Shown: positions 1 to 19,099 of the stretch, piece by piece | Numbering within the stretch: the first letter of the stretch is position 1 | Layout of the letters: each line of letters opens with the position of its first letter | Virus record (IMG/VR): IMGVR_UViG_3300043448_000258 | Location: 1-23,483 of that record | DNA: 23,483 nt | DNA from: a virus | Reading direction: 5' to 3' (one strand) | Notes under the pieces: generated by a model | The model's database searches: none | Seen by the model: only the letters and a program-made list of their open reading frames with translations | Told to the model about the DNA's origin: nothing | Program-made: the position numbers and the translations under genes

Positions 1-1030
1 GCACAACGTCGCTCAGATCCCGAACGCTGAAGTTCGGGTCTTTGCGCTGCGCCTCTGCGATGGCTACGGCACAGGCCGACCTCATGCGCTTCAGGATGTC
101 CTGAGACAGATGCTCAAGCAGCGGACGGTCAACGATTTCGTCGAGATGGAGCACCACCCCGCCCGGCGTGCGGTCGAAATCCTTGATCCGCAGTTCCGTC
201 TTCTGCTTGCGGCTGAGCCTGATCTTGGCCTGCTCCGCTTCCTGCCGGACCAGCGCCATGGCCGTGTCATCAACAGCGATATCCGTCTCATGCTTGGCCG
301 ACCACTGGTTGACGATATGACGCGCCAGGATGGCGTCCACGTCCGACCCGCCCGTGATTGATGACCCGCCCGTACCAAGCACGCTCACCAGGCCCGCGCC
401 GGTCTGGATGATCGAAACGTCAGTGGTCCCGCCGCCAACGTCCAGCACAGCAATCCTGCGGACCTTCTTGAAGTCATAGCCATAGGCCAGCGCCGCCGCG
501 GTCGGCTCGTCCATCAGCTCAATGTAGGTCAGCCCCGCCAGCTTGCCCGCTTCCTCCACCGCCCGACGCTGGGCAGGTGTGAAGGTGGCCGGCACGCAGA
601 TCACCGCGCCGTCGGGCTTCTGGCCCTTAAGCTTGTCCACCGCTGCATCAAGCAGCTTGCCGATGACTTCGGCGCAGAGTTCAACCGGGCTGTATGTATG
701 CCCGTCCGGCCCCTGATAGTGCGTAGTTCCGTCCGGGCCTTCGACGGTCTGATAGCCGGTGTCCTCGTCAGCGTGCCACATGTCCGCCAGGCGGCGCTTG
801 AAGTTGCGGAAGCAGAAATCCCGATAGCGCTTTCCGGCCTCGATGGCGTCCTGTCCGACGAACACCTGATCCTCGCCGGGACCGACCGCATCGCCGGGAA
901 CAATGGTGACGACGCTGGGCAGCAAGGGCGCACCGTCCACCGGGATGACTTCCGGCGCCCGACCGTTCCAGCGCGCTATGCTGCTGTTGGTCGAGCCCAA
1001 GTCCAGACCCACGACTTTAGAGAGTTTCAT
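1..1030 (-). CDS. DnaK/Hsp70-like molecular chaperone ATPase (C-terminus cut by window edge)
   Basis: The 343 visible residues form an Hsp70-type actin-fold nucleotide-binding domain. The phosphate-1 motif VGLDLGSTNS is at residues 7-16. A lysine in RNFKRRL (K78) sits where DnaK K70 lies. The block PATFTPAQRRAVEEAGKLAG is at about 147-166, DEPTAAALAYG at 174-184, and the phosphate-2 motif DVGGGTTD at 197-204. The IIB-like helix EAEQAKIRLS follows. The window ends at LSDVV, just before the expected third signature (LVGG), so the substrate-binding domain cannot be judged. Known Hsp70 proteins couple ATP hydrolysis to holding and releasing unfolded polypeptide. The ATG overlaps the stop of the upstream membrane-protein gene as ATGA, implying translational coupling. 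The gene is last in a tail module, so a role in virion assembly or at the membrane is inferred. No DnaJ or GrpE gene is visible. Divergent Hsp70-fold relatives are possible, but the motifs are close to DnaK. Confidence 0.93.
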   Translation of the reverse strand, partial: MKLSKVVGLDLGSTNSSIARWNGRAPEVIPVDGAPLLPSVVTIVPGDAVGPGEDQVFVGQDAIEAGKRYRDFCFRNFKRRLADMWHADEDTGYQTVEGPDGTTHYQGPDGHTYSPVELCAEVIGKLLDAAVDKLKGQKPDGAVICVPATFTPAQRRAVEEAGKLAGLTYIELMDEPTAAALAYGYDFKKVRRIAVLDVGGGTTDVSIIQTGAGLVSVLGTGGSSITGGSDVDAILARHIVNQWSAKHETDIAVDDTAMALVRQEAEQAKIRLSRKQKTELRIKDFDRTPGGVVLHLDEIVDRPLLEHLSQDILKRMRSACAVAIAEAQRKDPNFSVRDLSDVV

Positions 1031-2217
1031 TCTGCCGCCACCTTCACCTGCGCCGCGTCAACGGTCGAAACCGGGCCGATGACAAGCAGCCTTTCCTGCT
1101 TCTCAGCGCGCCGGTTGTGCTGGGCTGCCAGCCCGCCCAGACGGGCCGCGCGCTGCTGTTCCGTCAGCTCTGGGGGCGGGGCCGGGGGATCGACCAGCAC
1201 AAGCGGTTCGGGCTCTGGCGTGGCCGCTGGTGCGGGTTCGGGCTCCGGGGCGGGGGATGGGGCCGCAGGCGTCATGGCCGCGCGCATGGCCGCGACTTCC
1301 TGCTGGTGACGCAGCTCGGCCAGCTCGTCCGAACGCTCCCGGTCGCGCTTGGCATCGCGTGCGCTGATGTCCGTGATAAGCGCCCAGAGCGACAGCGAGC
1401 GAGCGGTTTCCAGCACGCAGAGCATGAAGATCAACCAGACCCATGCCCAGAAGGCTTGGGACGCTTTGTCGGCCTGCTCGATCTGCAACAGGCGCTTGTC
1501 TGTCGTGGCCTGCTGGACGGGGCTTGCCTGCCCTGCCAACAGCCCTGTCTCGCGGGCCTTGAGCACGGCCAGTTCCGCGCCGATCTCCTCGCCGCGCCTG
1601 CGCATGGCCGCTTCGGTCAGATCCTGCCGGATGCCATCGACGCGCCCGAAATACTTGCCCTGCGCCAGAAGCAGCGCCTGCGCTTCAGCCACGCCTTCGG
1701 GGCTTTGCGCCGCCATCTTGCGTTGCTCGACTTCCAGATTGGCGATCTGCGTCCTGACGCGTTCCAGTTCCGCGCCGGTGCCGCTGATGGCCGCCTGCTG
1801 CGCCTCGCCCAGCGTTCCGGCTTCCTCGCCTGCAAGCTGCGCCTTGGCAGCCAGCGAGGATGAGCTTTCGGCAAAGCGATCCGGCCAGACCACCTTTGCG
1901 CCGTTCTCGGCATTGTGGACACCGACCGCGGCAAGGCCAACGAAGATGAACGCGCCGGCCACCTTGCGCCATGTGGTCGACGCGGTGAGCATGCGGATAA
2001 AGGCGACCGTCGCCAGAAGCTCCGCGCCCAGCACGGCCACGATCATCCCGAGAATGGGAAGGAAGCTCAGCCAGTTCCAGTCAGCCGTTGCAACGATGCC
2101 CGTGACAGACAGCGACGCCAGACCGAACGTGATGATGACGACCGCGAACAACGCGAACTTGCGCGTTGCGTCAGCCTCGTTCTTGAACTCCAAGAACTTG
2201 TCCAGAAACTTGCTCAT
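1027..2217 (-). CDS. Multi-pass membrane protein with long coiled coil and proline-rich tail
   Basis: I do not recognise a family. The ATG at 2217 (MSKFLDKF) is chosen because AGAGGG lies about 7-8 nt upstream; an in-frame ATG at 2268 would add 17 residues overlapping the preceding gene. The 396-aa product shows hydrophobic segments at about 21-46, 48-74 and 83-104. A charged, Ala/Glu-rich, probably coiled-coil stretch follows to about 255. A fourth hydrophobic segment (AFWAWVWLIFMLCVLETARS) is at about 259-278. The tail is charged and then Pro/Glu-rich (repeated PEPEP and PAPPP). This suggests an inner-membrane protein with a large soluble coil between membrane segments. Its TGA overlaps the start of the DnaK-like gene as ATGA, and a second membrane/coiled-coil gene lies 19 nt upstream, so the three may act together. 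A role in DNA entry, exclusion or lysis cannot be assigned. Confidence 0.85.
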   Translation of the reverse strand: MSKFLDKFLEFKNEADATRKFALFAVVIITFGLASLSVTGIVATADWNWLSFLPILGMIVAVLGAELLATVAFIRMLTASTTWRKVAGAFIFVGLAAVGVHNAENGAKVVWPDRFAESSSSLAAKAQLAGEEAGTLGEAQQAAISGTGAELERVRTQIANLEVEQRKMAAQSPEGVAEAQALLLAQGKYFGRVDGIRQDLTEAAMRRRGEEIGAELAVLKARETGLLAGQASPVQQATTDKRLLQIEQADKASQAFWAWVWLIFMLCVLETARSLSLWALITDISARDAKRDRERSDELAELRHQQEVAAMRAAMTPAAPSPAPEPEPAPAATPEPEPLVLVDPPAPPPELTEQQRAARLGGLAAQHNRRAEKQERLLVIGPVSTVDAAQVKVAAE

Positions 2218-2236: not shown

Positions 2237-2680
2237 CTACAGGCGCGCGGTCGTCTCCCAGAACACAAACAGCGCGCCCAGGATCGACAGCACCGCGCCG
2301 AGGATCAGGAACAGGAATTGCTGCCGCGTCTTCTTTGCCTCGTTCGCCGCCGCTTCCCGGTCGCGCGCAAGCATCAGCTCAACCTGCGCCAGAATTGCGC
2401 TGGACTGGCTTTCATTCGCCGTCGCGAAGTGGTCGCGAATACCGTTGATAGCTTCACGCAATCCGGTCTCCCATTCTCGTTTCAGTTCCTTGATGTCCTC
2501 AGCGGAAACCGAGCGTTCCAGTTCTTTGAGGAACGTATCAAACGCCGCTTCAAAGCGTGTCCGCAGAACGGCAACGTCACGCTCGACCGTGTTGATACGG
2601 TCGTTATTCCGGTTGGCGTCGCGCTGACGCTCGATCTCGACTTGCTCTTTCAGCAGCAATTCCATGCCCAGCCCGCCCAC
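2237..2680 (-). CDS. Small coiled-coil protein with C-terminal membrane anchor
   Basis: Up to 147 aa. The first ~115 residues are highly charged and helical (for example EQVEIERQRDANRNNDRI and ELMLARDREAAANEAKKT). One hydrophobic segment, QFLFLILGAVLSILGALFVF, is at residues 121-140, followed by only seven residues. This looks like a tail-anchored membrane protein. The start is uncertain. GTG at 2680 has GAGGT about 10 nt upstream, while ATG at 2665 (MELLLKEQ) has only a poor ribosome site. A third ATG at 2684 is out of frame. The gene lies 6 nt after the possible fibre-assembly gene and 19 nt before the multi-pass membrane gene. The topology is opposite to Rz-type i-spanins, which carry an N-terminal anchor, so I do not call it a spanin. 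Function unknown. Confidence 0.8.
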   Translation of the reverse strand: MGGLGMELLLKEQVEIERQRDANRNNDRINTVERDVAVLRTRFEAAFDTFLKELERSVSAEDIKELKREWETGLREAINGIRDHFATANESQSSAILAQVELMLARDREAAANEAKKTRQQFLFLILGAVLSILGALFVFWETTARL

Positions 2681-2686
2681 TCATGA

Positions 2687-3181
2687 TTAAACCTCGCCGC
2701 GACGCGTCAGCAGCCCCAGCAACCTGTCAATCTGCGCACTCCTCGGGTTCGCCACGCCCGTTGCCTGATGCTCGCGGTCCAGCCTTGCCCGCTCGACGTT
2801 CAACTGCTCGCTGATGTGCTTCTGTCTCAGCGCCGACAGCGTCTGCACCAGCAACGCCGCCGCTTCCTCGTCCTTCTCGAACGCGCTCAGAAGCTGATCG
2901 CCTGTCAGCTCCTCGACCGGCTCGGCGTCGAAGTCCAGGAGGTCATCGCGCGCACGTTCGGGCTGGGCGATGACGGATGCGCCTAGCCGGACATAGCGGG
3001 GCGGCTCTGGCGGAATGTCCATTCGATCCCCGCGAATGACGGCACGCACTTCGCCGCGCCAGCTTCGCCACTCCGGCGAAATTGTCAGACCTTCGTCTGC
3101 CGCTTTGGCGTCGACATGGTCCACAGCCTTGAGCGTGCGCCAGGCTTCGGCCTTCAGTTGGCCGTGCGCTTCCTGATCCAT
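2687..3181 (-). CDS. Hypothetical protein next to tailspike, possible tail-fibre assembly chaperone
   Basis: 164 aa, starting at ATG 3181 with AAGGA about 8 nt upstream; the gene lies 11 nt after the tailspike stop. The segment PEWRSWRGEVRAVIRG (about residues 36-51), followed by DIPPEPP, resembles the W-x-x-(W/Y)-R...R pattern and following Pro-rich piece of small tail-fibre assembly proteins. Position supports this: such chaperones normally lie directly downstream of the fibre or spike they help fold. The remainder is acidic in the middle (DLLDFDAEPVEELTG) and helical at the C-terminus (a Leu/Arg-rich stretch ending LLGLLTRRGEV), without membrane segments. The family match is a reading of a short motif only, so the functional call is tentative. 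The gene itself is firm from its packing and ribosome site. Confidence 0.75.
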   Translation of the reverse strand: MDQEAHGQLKAEAWRTLKAVDHVDAKAADEGLTISPEWRSWRGEVRAVIRGDRMDIPPEPPRYVRLGASVIAQPERARDDLLDFDAEPVEELTGDQLLSAFEKDEEAAALLVQTLSALRQKHISEQLNVERARLDREHQATGVANPRSAQIDRLLGLLTRRGEV

Positions 3182-3192
3182 GTAAATTATCC

Positions 3193-5556
3193 TTAAGCCG
3201 GGGTCACAGACGCGGAGCCGTCAGCAACGTGCCAGTTGCTCACGTCAGTTGTTCCGCTGGCGACCATCAGGCGGTTGTTTGTCGTGTCGTAGACGATCCG
3301 ACCGGCATATTTGCCCTTTGTGTTTATATCGTTCGTCTTGTCGGCAATCTGCGTCGCCGTGCGCGTGTTTGCGTATATCTCGCTGGTGTTGCTTGATCGT
3401 CCCATCTCGTGCCAGTTCGTTCCGAACATGGCGAGCAAGGTGATCGTGTCTTCGCTTGTGGACGACGGAAAGAAGTGTTTTCCACCATTGAGATAAAGCT
3501 GCGTCGTATCGTAAAGACCTGCTGTGCCGGTAAAGACCAGCGTGACTTTGCGCCCGATCCGGTTCGGAACGCCTACCTGAGCAGTCGCCGCCGCACCGGA
3601 CCCGCCACCGCCGCTGAATGACACCGTCGGCGTGGACGTGTAGCCCGAGCCGTGATTGGTCATCAGTATGGAGGTCACGGCGCCACCCGTACCCACATAA
3701 GCCGTTGCGGCAGCGCCAGATCCACCGCCACCAGAAAACGAGACTGTTGGGGCAGATGTATAGCCCGACCCGCCGTTAGTGATTTCAAGCCACGCGACTT
3801 TTTCGTGGTACAAATTCTGGCTGTAACTGCGTATTCCACCAGTGATGTCCGTCGAGCCGGTAATCGACACCACGTCGCAATAATCGGGAATAACCAGCGT
3901 CGCCGCCGACGCGATGGCGTGGCCGCCTATGGTTGCGTCGTTGACGCGAACGTTGTTATCCGCGCGAATAGAGTCGGTCTCGAACAGGAATGCAAGATTA
4001 GCCGATCCACCACGAACCGAATTGTTCTGAACAACAAGGCCATCTCCACCCTGCTTTACGTAAACGCCTCCCTGCGTCGAAACCGTCAAAACGATCATGT
4101 TATTGCAGATTGAGACGTTGCTGGTTCGGTACGGGAAGCCAGCGCCAGAGCCGCTTAACTCATAGGCCGCGCACTGAATGCCAATGCCAGCGCCAGCTCC
4201 AAGCGCGCCATTGTTTATCAGAACGTTGTCGTCACAAGACGTGTCGGTCGAACCGCCAATGTTGATTCCCACTCCACCATTTGCCGTGGCGTTGCCGTTC
4301 GTTGAACAGATGTTGTCGCAGACAATGCTATCAACCGAACCGCCGGCATCGATTCCATAAAATGCGTTGCTGTTGCAGATGTTGTTGGAGCAAATCGAGG
4401 AATAGGCGTTGAACAGTATCCCGCCGTAAAAGCCGCTGGTTGTTCCGCCGTTTTCGTAACACTGGTTGTTGATGCACTCCATCAACTGCCCTTGAAGGCC
4501 GATGCCGTAAGCGGCGTTCCCGCGGCATCTGTTGCCTGACACAATGATGTTGAACGCCTGCAGGCTCGAATAGACTGGCATGATATTGTCAGTCGTCGTT
4601 CCAAGCACCGCAATTCCAGAGGCGGAATTGTCAAGGCATACATTGTTTATGATTGAAATGTAGCGCTGTGAGGCTGGCTCGATGGGAGCATCCAGGTTCA
4701 CCAAAGTAATGCCGGCGCCGCCGTTGTTTGTTGCGCGGTTTCCGTCGATCGTGACGTTCCAACACTCGTCAATTGAAACTCCGGCGCCATCGTTCTCAGA
4801 CGAAACGCACCCTAAAACCTGAGTAACTGTGTCGTTGGTCTGGTCGCTGGTAGACGAAATCGCAAGCCCGGAGCCATAGCCGCTGGCCGCTTTGGCGTTC
4901 TTGAACCAGACGCGCTCAAGCTGATAATTGTAGCCGCTGGTTATTGAAACGTTGTTTGACCCGAGCGTCTGGTTTGCCTTGTTTCCATCAACGCAAAGGT
5001 CTCGCAACGTGACGCCAGTTGCGGTGAGATTGACCACTGAAGCGTTACTTGCCGCGCTGTTCGGTCGCTTCAGGATAGAATCATGCATCCCGTCGCCATA
5101 GACCAGCGTATTGGTTGGCGGCGTCCAGTTGTTTACAATGTAGGTTCCACCTGGAATGTAGATGGCTCGACCGGCTGCGGCGGCAGCCGTGCCCGCTGCG
5201 GTGAAAGCTGCTGTGTCGTCCGTTGAACCGTTCCCGGTCGCGCCGTACAGAAGGACGTTGTAGTTCTCGCTGTCGTCGGCGTTATCATTAGCGTAGTCGC
5301 GCGTCGCCAGCGTTACGCCTGAACTGTCTTTGTACACCAGCTTGACAATGATCCCATCGGAAATCCACCGCTCTGGGAGACGCCCGGCTGCATCCGACGT
5401 GATCTGATAGCCCGCCGTCGTCGTCAGCGCGCGGTCAGAATAGACCGTTCGCGGCGTCGTGGTTCCGGCGTCATAGACCTCGATAGTCCCGCCCGGTTCC
5501 AAAGCTCCGCTATCGTCCAGCAAGGTGTGGACGAGCCCAAACAAGTTCTTCGCCAT
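3193..5556 (-). CDS. Tailspike protein, pectate-lyase-like right-handed beta-helix
   Basis: 787 aa. Residues ~1-95 (from MAKNLFGLVHTLLDDSGAL through DAAGRLPERW to ATRDYANDN) match the N-terminal virion-attachment domain common to phage spikes. LLYGATGNGSTDDTAAFTAA at about 102-121 is the typical entry into a Pectate_lyase_3-type beta-helix. Repeated Asn-rich turns (NNGGAGI, NNVCLDNSASGIAV, NNICNSNAFYGIDAGG) continue to about residue 540. Two near-identical modules containing GSGYTS.PTVSFSGGGGSG follow at about 591-665. The C-terminal region ends with RIVYDTTNNRLMVASG...WHVADG. Such spikes are usually trimeric and bind or cleave surface polysaccharide; catalytic residues and substrate cannot be read here. 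The beta-helix part is visibly less GC-rich than neighbouring genes, consistent with exchange of the receptor-specificity region. The ATG starts 3 nt after the upstream stop and has no strong ribosome site. Confidence 0.93.
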   Translation of the reverse strand: MAKNLFGLVHTLLDDSGALEPGGTIEVYDAGTTTPRTVYSDRALTTTAGYQITSDAAGRLPERWISDGIIVKLVYKDSSGVTLATRDYANDNADDSENYNVLLYGATGNGSTDDTAAFTAAGTAAAAAGRAIYIPGGTYIVNNWTPPTNTLVYGDGMHDSILKRPNSAASNASVVNLTATGVTLRDLCVDGNKANQTLGSNNVSITSGYNYQLERVWFKNAKAASGYGSGLAISSTSDQTNDTVTQVLGCVSSENDGAGVSIDECWNVTIDGNRATNNGGAGITLVNLDAPIEPASQRYISIINNVCLDNSASGIAVLGTTTDNIMPVYSSLQAFNIIVSGNRCRGNAAYGIGLQGQLMECINNQCYENGGTTSGFYGGILFNAYSSICSNNICNSNAFYGIDAGGSVDSIVCDNICSTNGNATANGGVGINIGGSTDTSCDDNVLINNGALGAGAGIGIQCAAYELSGSGAGFPYRTSNVSICNNMIVLTVSTQGGVYVKQGGDGLVVQNNSVRGGSANLAFLFETDSIRADNNVRVNDATIGGHAIASAATLVIPDYCDVVSITGSTDITGGIRSYSQNLYHEKVAWLEITNGGSGYTSAPTVSFSGGGGSGAAATAYVGTGGAVTSILMTNHGSGYTSTPTVSFSGGGGSGAAATAQVGVPNRIGRKVTLVFTGTAGLYDTTQLYLNGGKHFFPSSTSEDTITLLAMFGTNWHEMGRSSNTSEIYANTRTATQIADKTNDINTKGKYAGRIVYDTTNNRLMVASGTTDVSNWHVADGSASVTPA
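3590..3785 (-). repeat. Two-copy repeat in the tailspike C-terminal half
   Basis: Two modules of about 40 residues contain NGGSGYTSAPTVSFSGGGGS and NHGSGYTSTPTVSFSGGGGS, each followed by GAAATA. They are about 41 codons apart, near residues 591 and 632. This GSGYTS.P motif is a known recurring piece of phage tail proteins. It lies between the beta-helix and the C-terminal domain and may be a spacer or carbohydrate-contact module. Confidence 0.75.
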
Positions 5557-18190: not shown

Positions 18191-19099
18191 TTACGCGCCG
18201 GACGTGCCGCGCACGCAGCGCCAGTCGACCCAGCCCGAGATATAGCGCTCGGTTGCCTTGGCCTTGGCGTTTTCCGTGTCGAAGTCGTTGTCCTGTTCCA
18301 TCTCCAGCTTGCGGCGCTGAAGCGTGACCAGGCCTTCCGGCACGTTGTCGATCATCAGGAACCACGCGTTCGCATCGGTCAGGTAGTCCCAGACCGAGTA
18401 ACCGCGCGAGAGCATGCCCGACGAGCGAACCGCGTTGATGTCGTTGTTCGCCGTGCCCGACTGCTTCTCGGACTTCATGAGCCGTTCAGCCACGAAGCCG
18501 AGTTGCGGCGGAACGACCAGTTCACGCGCGCGGAAGTACATCTTCAGCCCGCGGCTGTTGGTCATCAGGCGAGCATTGATCAGCTCGTCTTCCAGCGAGG
18601 CTTCCGACAGATCGGCGTCAACGGTAGGCTTGTTGGCCTTGTTGCCAGCGAGCGTCGGGTGAGAGGTCGAGAACAGCGCAACGCCATCGCCGCCCGTGAA
18701 GGACGCCGAGAAGCCGTTGTTGAAGTGCGCCGCGTGGACGATCTCCTTGGACTGAGCCATCGAGTAGGCGAGGTTACGGGAGCGACGCGAGGCGCGGCTC
18801 TCGTACTGATTGTCCTCGATCTCCTCGCGGGACGCCATCCAGCCAAGGCCCCAGACCACGTTGGTAAGACGGGTCTTGTAGCCTTCGCTGTCGGTGTCGA
18901 AGCGGATCGCCTGGCCTTCGTTCTTGATGTCCGGCAGGCCGAAGGTGGTGCTTTCCACGAATTCTTCGTAGGCCTTGTCCGAAGACTTGTCCTCGAAGTA
19001 GCGCGAGTACTGCTTCTCCATCTGCTTGTAGGCTTTGCCGAAATGGGCCTTGATACCGGGCCACAGGTCGGCGGGGTGCAGAGCACGAGTCATAACCAT
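18191..19099 (-). CDS. Major capsid protein (HK97-fold, Mu gpT-like type)
   Basis: 302 aa. It begins MVMTRALHPADLWPGIKAHF and continues with the features of this capsid class: FGKAYKQMEKQYSRYFEDKS near the N-terminus, then EGYKTRLTNVVWGLGWMASR and EEIEDNQYESRASRRSRNLA. ALFSTSHPTLAGNKANKP is at about 141-158, and PPQLGFVAERLMKSEKQSGT and WFLMIDNVPEGL follow. It lies directly after the scaffold and two small head genes, and has the best ribosome site in the window (AAGGAGG, 9 nt before ATG 19099), fitting a protein needed in hundreds of copies. A hairpin follows the stop. A protease-processed N-terminus is not evident. The assignment rests on these sequence blocks and context. Confidence 0.88.
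   Translation of the reverse strand: MVMTRALHPADLWPGIKAHFGKAYKQMEKQYSRYFEDKSSDKAYEEFVESTTFGLPDIKNEGQAIRFDTDSEGYKTRLTNVVWGLGWMASREEIEDNQYESRASRRSRNLAYSMAQSKEIVHAAHFNNGFSASFTGGDGVALFSTSHPTLAGNKANKPTVDADLSEASLEDELINARLMTNSRGLKMYFRARELVVPPQLGFVAERLMKSEKQSGTANNDINAVRSSGMLSRGYSVWDYLTDANAWFLMIDNVPEGLVTLQRRKLEMEQDNDFDTENAKAKATERYISGWVDWRCVRGTSGA

Follow-up and report, generated by a model that had tools for sequence, protein, structure and literature searches.

A phage-specific, lid-less Hsp70 encoded next to a membrane protein in a probable lysis cassette

The stretch of DNA analysed here (the window) is a linear viral record of 23,483 bp (IMG/VR IMGVR_UViG_3300043448_000258) that begins inside an hsp70 gene. 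This gene (2..1030, minus strand) starts with an ATG at position 1030 and is open at the contig end, so the window holds just its first 343 codons, covering most of the nucleotide-binding domain (NBD), and no endolysin gene. Upstream, all on the minus strand, lie c3 (1027..2217), coding for a membrane protein of about 396 aa; c4 (2237..2665), coding for a small tail-anchored protein of about 142 aa with a coiled region and one C-terminal transmembrane (TM) segment; c2 (2687..3181), whose product has a variable N-terminus and a conserved C-terminal part of about 60 residues; and a variable tailspike gene (3193..5556) with a pectate-lyase-like beta helix. According to hydropathy, c3 has up to four TM segments, arranged as N-terminal TMs, a periplasmic-type coiled region of about 150 residues, a last TM, a cytosolic Pro-rich linker and a conserved cytosolic C-terminal tail (1027..1149, minus; ...RRAEKQERLLVIGPVSTVDAAQVKVAAE), which is co-inherited with Hsp70. 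A weak PG_binding_1-like motif was seen in c3 (E=0.029; 4/13 members at E<1), and we do not claim this domain. The c3 stop and the hsp70 start overlap by 4 bp in the sequence ATGA (1027..1030, minus), and a Shine-Dalgarno-like AAGGTGG for hsp70 is encoded within the last c3 codons. The c3 protein ends in VKVAAE in the window and in MKVAAE in relatives. Farther along, at 18191-19099 (minus), is a major capsid protein gene of the Mu gpT/Phage_capsid_4 type, related to those of Pelagibacter phage HTVC027P, Roseobacter phages CRP-901/902 and Caulobacter RW-type phages; upstream of the capsid gene, two related records have a gene annotated as GroES.

The gene at the window end encodes a real, intact Hsp70 ATPase domain, and it is not a piece of host DNA. 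A first-pass annotation made from the sequence alone had recognised an Hsp70 with all of its quoted ATPase motifs and had suggested a Pfam search. Both points were borne out, as the 343-aa product matches PF00012 with E=2.4e-62 and contains DLGSTNS, DVGGGTTD, DEPTAAALAYG and a Lys at the position of DnaK K70. That annotation had also named findings that would speak against an active Hsp70. One was an actin homologue of the MreB/ParM type, which we rejected on the fold and on the far weaker Pfam match to MreB_Mbl (E=3e-16). An early frameshift was not seen either, and dN/dS is 0.03-0.15. A host or chimeric end segment was rejected as well, since the junction is common to the window and 30 other viral contigs. 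The view that the protein is an active enzyme rather than a relic agrees with the retention of its catalytic residues and the strong purifying selection; judged from sequence, the phage Hsp70 is apparently active.

An initial scan of viral contigs gave 15 relatives that are 74-92% identical, and profile scans together with a scan using the neighbouring membrane protein brought the set to 30 contigs besides the window. The complete Hsp70 in these relatives has about 487-513 aa and consists of an NBD, an interdomain linker and a beta-type substrate-binding domain (SBD-beta), with E=2.1e-91 to PF00012 for a full-length relative. What follows beyond position 1 of the window, which is cut before the linker and the SBD, can thus be read from the relatives: the linker and a complete beta-sandwich SBD, both also found in the AlphaFold2 model, are present, and the lid, for which the first-pass annotation had likewise suggested a check, is absent. 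Residues were compared with E. coli DnaK in 25 distinct full-length relatives. D8, K70, E171, D194, T199 and D201 are identical in all 25, and every one of these proteins ends at DnaK residue 496-497 and hence lacks the lid. At the J-protein interface, R167 is replaced by E, K, D, S or Y, N170 by D, H or E, and E217 by other residues, in each case in 25/25. The VLLLD linker of DnaK reads LT[VI]QD or similar in the relatives, being altered and still of a hydrophobic type. The pocket residue V436 is L, M, V or I. Of the three classes into which the Hsp70s and their cognate c3 tails fall, two (A and B) have Arg in place of the arch residue A429. With this substitution the cleft may bind in another way, or may not bind. 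No gene matching a J-domain (PF00226) or GrpE (PF01025) was detected in a sample of 15 contigs, most of them fragments.

The AlphaFold2 model, built from 42 diverse sequences (pLDDT 90.2, pTM 0.89), matches 5nro (DnaK with bound J-domain) and 4b9q (ATP-bound open DnaK) with TM-scores of 0.87-0.88 and rmsd of 2.4-2.9; the structural match to DnaK is at 32% identity and TM 0.88. In a phylogenetic tree, the Hsp70s of this neighbourhood group in a single clade (support 100/100) on a long stem, separate from DnaK, HscA, HscC and the full-length phage DnaKs; HscA and HscC are themselves long branches, and our claim is confined to the unity of the group. The label DnaK given in the first-pass annotation did not hold: the score against the NCBIfam DnaK equivalog (TIGR02350) is 316 bits for a cut-off of 648, the lid is absent and the J-interface residues are replaced. 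Membership in HscA or HscC was rejected because the clade leaves out both and because the scores against the HscA models (262-265 bits) are below their cut-offs (620-709). The protein is thus a member of the Hsp70 superfamily that is neither DnaK, HscA nor HscC. A scan of cellular genome contigs returned just DnaK-like matches at 31-32%, and no donor can therefore be named.

The neighbourhood of the gene is strongly conserved. The genes of the relatives run from a variable tailspike through c2, c4, c3 and Hsp70 to an endolysin gene (c1). The window shows c2-c4-c3-Hsp70; its endolysin presumably lies beyond the contig end, as judged from its relatives, including the closest one (L002, 92%), where the gene is present. 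Counting near-duplicate contigs, a membrane protein bearing the tail stands directly before Hsp70 in 31/31 contigs, Hsp70 comes next wherever a c3-bearing contig continues beyond c3 (28 of 28), and the endolysin is downstream in 29/29 Hsp70 contigs that extend far enough. Even Hsp70s that are merely 37-50% alike, recovered with c3 as the only query, are still in the cassette. A complete c4 is present in the cassettes of 20 of the 24 relatives compared, some of the others being cut by the contig end. The 4-bp overlap between c3 and hsp70 is common to the window and classes A and B, and in class C the two genes are 3-11 bp apart, or about 0.6-0.8 kb in one contig (L105). Searches of cultured phages and plasmids gave no match to c3, and the cassette was not found in cultured phages. 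Based on the endolysin, the TM-bearing neighbours and the position, we consider the c2-c4-c3-Hsp70-endolysin neighbourhood a probable lysis cassette; TM segments are present in c3, in c4 and in the endolysin tail, none of which matched a known holin or spanin family. The first-pass annotation had placed the gene at the end of a tail module within a virion operon. A late phage operon is agreed, and by position the gene does come after the tailspike; three small genes nevertheless intervene and an endolysin follows in the relatives, which points to lysis rather than to the tail.

The endolysin of the relatives combines a Phage_lysozyme domain (PF00959, E=4e-32) with a Pro-rich region and a TM segment at the C-terminus. 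Among NCBIfam models it comes closest to BgtA and SpmX, with scores far below the equivalog cut-offs, a hint of alphaproteobacterial hosts. The muramidase part partly follows Hsp70 (rho 0.66-0.76), and the C-terminal TM part shows a correlation of about 0 and shuffles freely. Across all the relatives, the same muramidase is joined via the Pro-rich linker to one of several C-terminal membrane domains, which appear unrelated to one another and shuffle independently. Nine endolysins (L110, L115, L104, L117, L091, L105, L107, L111 and L113) have a Glu where T4-type lysozymes carry their catalytic Thr (LCEGGAWE.SYG versus CPGDKLTIGYG), a T26E-like change in an alignment made by eye, with the catalytic Glu kept. 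In three contigs, including that of the window's nearest relative, an HNH homing-endonuclease-like gene lies on the opposite strand between hsp70 and the endolysin gene (L002:2945-3511(-), L043:3639-4442(-) and L015:11524-12207(-)), and the intergenic stretch that carries it measures about 660-820 bp. The Hsp70s of these three contigs have the end GGVxFGxS in common although their NBDs fall into different groups, a pattern suggestive of homing in which the hsp70 3' end was co-converted.

The last ~40 residues of c3 segregate with Hsp70 rather than with the remainder of c3. Class A tails read ERLLVIGPVSTLD...KVAAE and class B tails NRVLILADRSNAQAMKVAAE, and class C tails are of the LIVIPSFLARD or YIVVPSLVARD types. 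The identity of the tail follows that of Hsp70 with a rank correlation of rho 0.85, against 0.23 for the tail and its own c3 body; as partial correlations, the two values become 0.84 and 0.02 (permutation p=0.001). Individual pairs illustrate this pattern. The c3 bodies of L101 and L111 are 96% identical, with tails at 32% and Hsp70s at 33%, and those of L002 and L100 are 100% identical, with tails at 43% and Hsp70s at 40%, the break falling within the Pro-rich linker. A natural chimera was found in L054 (4619-6004, plus strand), where an unrelated body with four TMs and a coiled coil is joined to a c3 tail; homology to c3 is restricted to the last 68 aa (E=9e-11), and in the tree the L054 Hsp70 is nearly identical to that of L101. 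No second contig with the L054-type membrane body was found. The stable core thus consists of the tail, Hsp70 and, more loosely, the muramidase, with exchangeable membrane modules on either side.

It should be kept in mind that the tail and Hsp70 are encoded by adjacent DNA. A breakpoint in the Pro-rich linker of c3 moves both, and their co-inheritance could reflect linkage rather than binding. Two observations nonetheless argue for function, without proving binding: the tail is under purifying selection, and L054 has swapped its membrane body. In class A, conservation is poor in the linker and good in the basic stretch and core of the tail. The tail codons vary synonymously, which indicates that the conservation of the tail is not only a DNA signal, even though the last few codons also carry the hsp70 Shine-Dalgarno. 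The tails of classes A and B resemble NRLLLTG, the peptide crystallised with DnaK (motif described in PMC2717214), as in ERLLVIG and NRVLILA (shuffle p 0.002-0.012). Class C tails show no such resemblance in the same scoring, and the likeness is therefore supporting only. Taken as a whole, a dedicated partnership between Hsp70 and the tail-bearing membrane protein is well supported.

Our main reading, to which we assign a probability of roughly one half, is that this phage-specific, lid-less and J-independent Hsp70, a fixed part of the probable lysis cassette, binds the c3 tail and controls how the lysis machinery is assembled, held or released. Both tail binding and lysis control are inferred. 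The SBD-beta cleft would bind the hydrophobic core of the tail, behind its basic residues, much as HscA holds the LPPVK motif of IscU. Binding and release driven by ATP, with no J-protein involved, would then control the assembly or restraint of a c3/c4/endolysin complex at the inner membrane, such that lysis begins at the right time. A more specific version, which we put forward tentatively and as less probable, is an ATP-driven switch: Hsp70 might hold the cytosolic tail of c3, and perhaps the muramidase, and release it when cellular ATP or membrane energy falls, thereby firing lysis.

Other roles were weighed against this reading. Hsp70 might be a chaperone dedicated to folding or secreting the endolysin, holding this signal-less, membrane-tethered muramidase in an inactive or translocation-competent state until lysis, with only an incidental part for the c3 tail. 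The constant presence of the endolysin downstream and the tracking of Hsp70 by its muramidase part, and not by its TM part, fit this idea, which we nevertheless find rather doubtful: the c3 tail is the more tightly linked partner (0.82-0.89), some endolysins do not respect the Hsp70 classes (identities of up to 0.65 from one class to another), and the HNH-bearing stretch parts hsp70 from the endolysin gene in three contigs. A non-chaperone, structural or scaffolding actin-fold protein, comparable to the closterovirus Hsp70h of the virion tail, appears unlikely. Such a role would suit the lost lid, the altered pocket and linker and the co-chaperones that were not found, and closterovirus Hsp70h is among the matches in a viral fold library, but all catalytic residues and the ATP-docked fold are retained, and the tie to an endolysin and a membrane protein is not that of a particle protein.

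The first-pass annotation had proposed a dedicated client such as the tailspike or the ejection proteins. A dedicated client is indeed likely, but a chaperone for the morphogenesis of such virion proteins seems quite improbable, even if assembly in phages often depends on chaperones and the gene belongs to a late operon directly after the tailspike gene. Tailspike genes vary while the Hsp70 cassette is constant and tied to the membrane protein and the endolysin; the J-interface residues are replaced; and Hsp70 is absent from Pelagibacter HTVC027P, Roseobacter CRP-901/902 and Caulobacter RW phages, which are cultured and have a related capsid protein. Very improbable, finally, is counter-defence in which the protein acts as a DnaK decoy, titrating J-proteins of the host or immune sensors that depend on chaperones, as proposed for the DnaK/DnaJ of moraphages (PMC12619734) and for which bNACHT25 and DnaJ offer a comparison (PMC12169576). 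The residues that a decoy would need for J-binding are replaced in 25/25 relatives, and a fixed late position in a lysis cassette would be odd for such a function.

The timing of phage lysis is usually credited to holins alone, and Hsp70s are regarded as general, J-dependent chaperones. If our main reading is true, an Hsp70 without lid and J-interface, set between a membrane protein and an endolysin, adds an ATPase to the lysis machinery; if the switch is true, it would be the first Hsp70 whose dedicated task is to time phage lysis, and it would do so without J-proteins or GrpE. With its three classes, the pair of Hsp70 and cognate tail also offers a small natural two-part system for testing Hsp70 client specificity, and the cassette shows how membrane modules are exchanged in nature while a core of tail, Hsp70 and muramidase stays constant.

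Among the open-licence papers searched, none describes an Hsp70 as part of a lysis cassette. To our knowledge, the MS2 lysis protein L and DnaJ provide the only link between lysis and a chaperone. L interacts with host DnaJ (PMC10688784), and that system differs from ours in relying on a host J-protein and single-gene lysis, with no phage Hsp70; in a lysis paper of 2024 (BMC Microbiol), DnaK is a blot control only. Phage Hsp70s are known as the full-length DnaKs of very large phages (PMC12619734), such as Lak phages and moraphages. Those in our set (L069-L090) are likewise phage-encoded, but they have about 610-637 aa where complete, many are in very large genomes, and no c3 or endolysin neighbours were found for them; full-length phage DnaKs (~630 aa) are not part of the c3/endolysin cassette. 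An UNVERIFIED record of Pseudomonas phage Y6 (L017, OQ572408.1) contains a DnaK of ordinary type (639 aa), which probably stems from host DNA carried over into the assembly. Closterovirus Hsp70h is also a viral Hsp70 homologue encoded in a block with structural and membrane genes; it is a virion-tail protein of plant RNA viruses, mostly at <25% identity in the fold search. The endolysin is nearest to the SpmX/BgtA-type muramidases of Alphaproteobacteria in its lysozyme domain, Pro-rich part and C-terminal TM, although SpmX is a cellular localisation factor. Compared with DnaK (PF00012, TIGR02350), the phage Hsp70 is alike in fold, ATPase residues and the order of the SBD-beta, and it differs in its early end, its replaced R167 and N170 and its altered linker. 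The working analogy is HscA with the LPPVK motif of IscU, a specialised Hsp70 that is dedicated to a single client motif and whose pocket and arch residues are altered (in the alignment, HscA has M at the V436 position); HscA, however, has a lid and a J partner, HscB, its client is not a membrane protein, and it falls outside the cassette clade.
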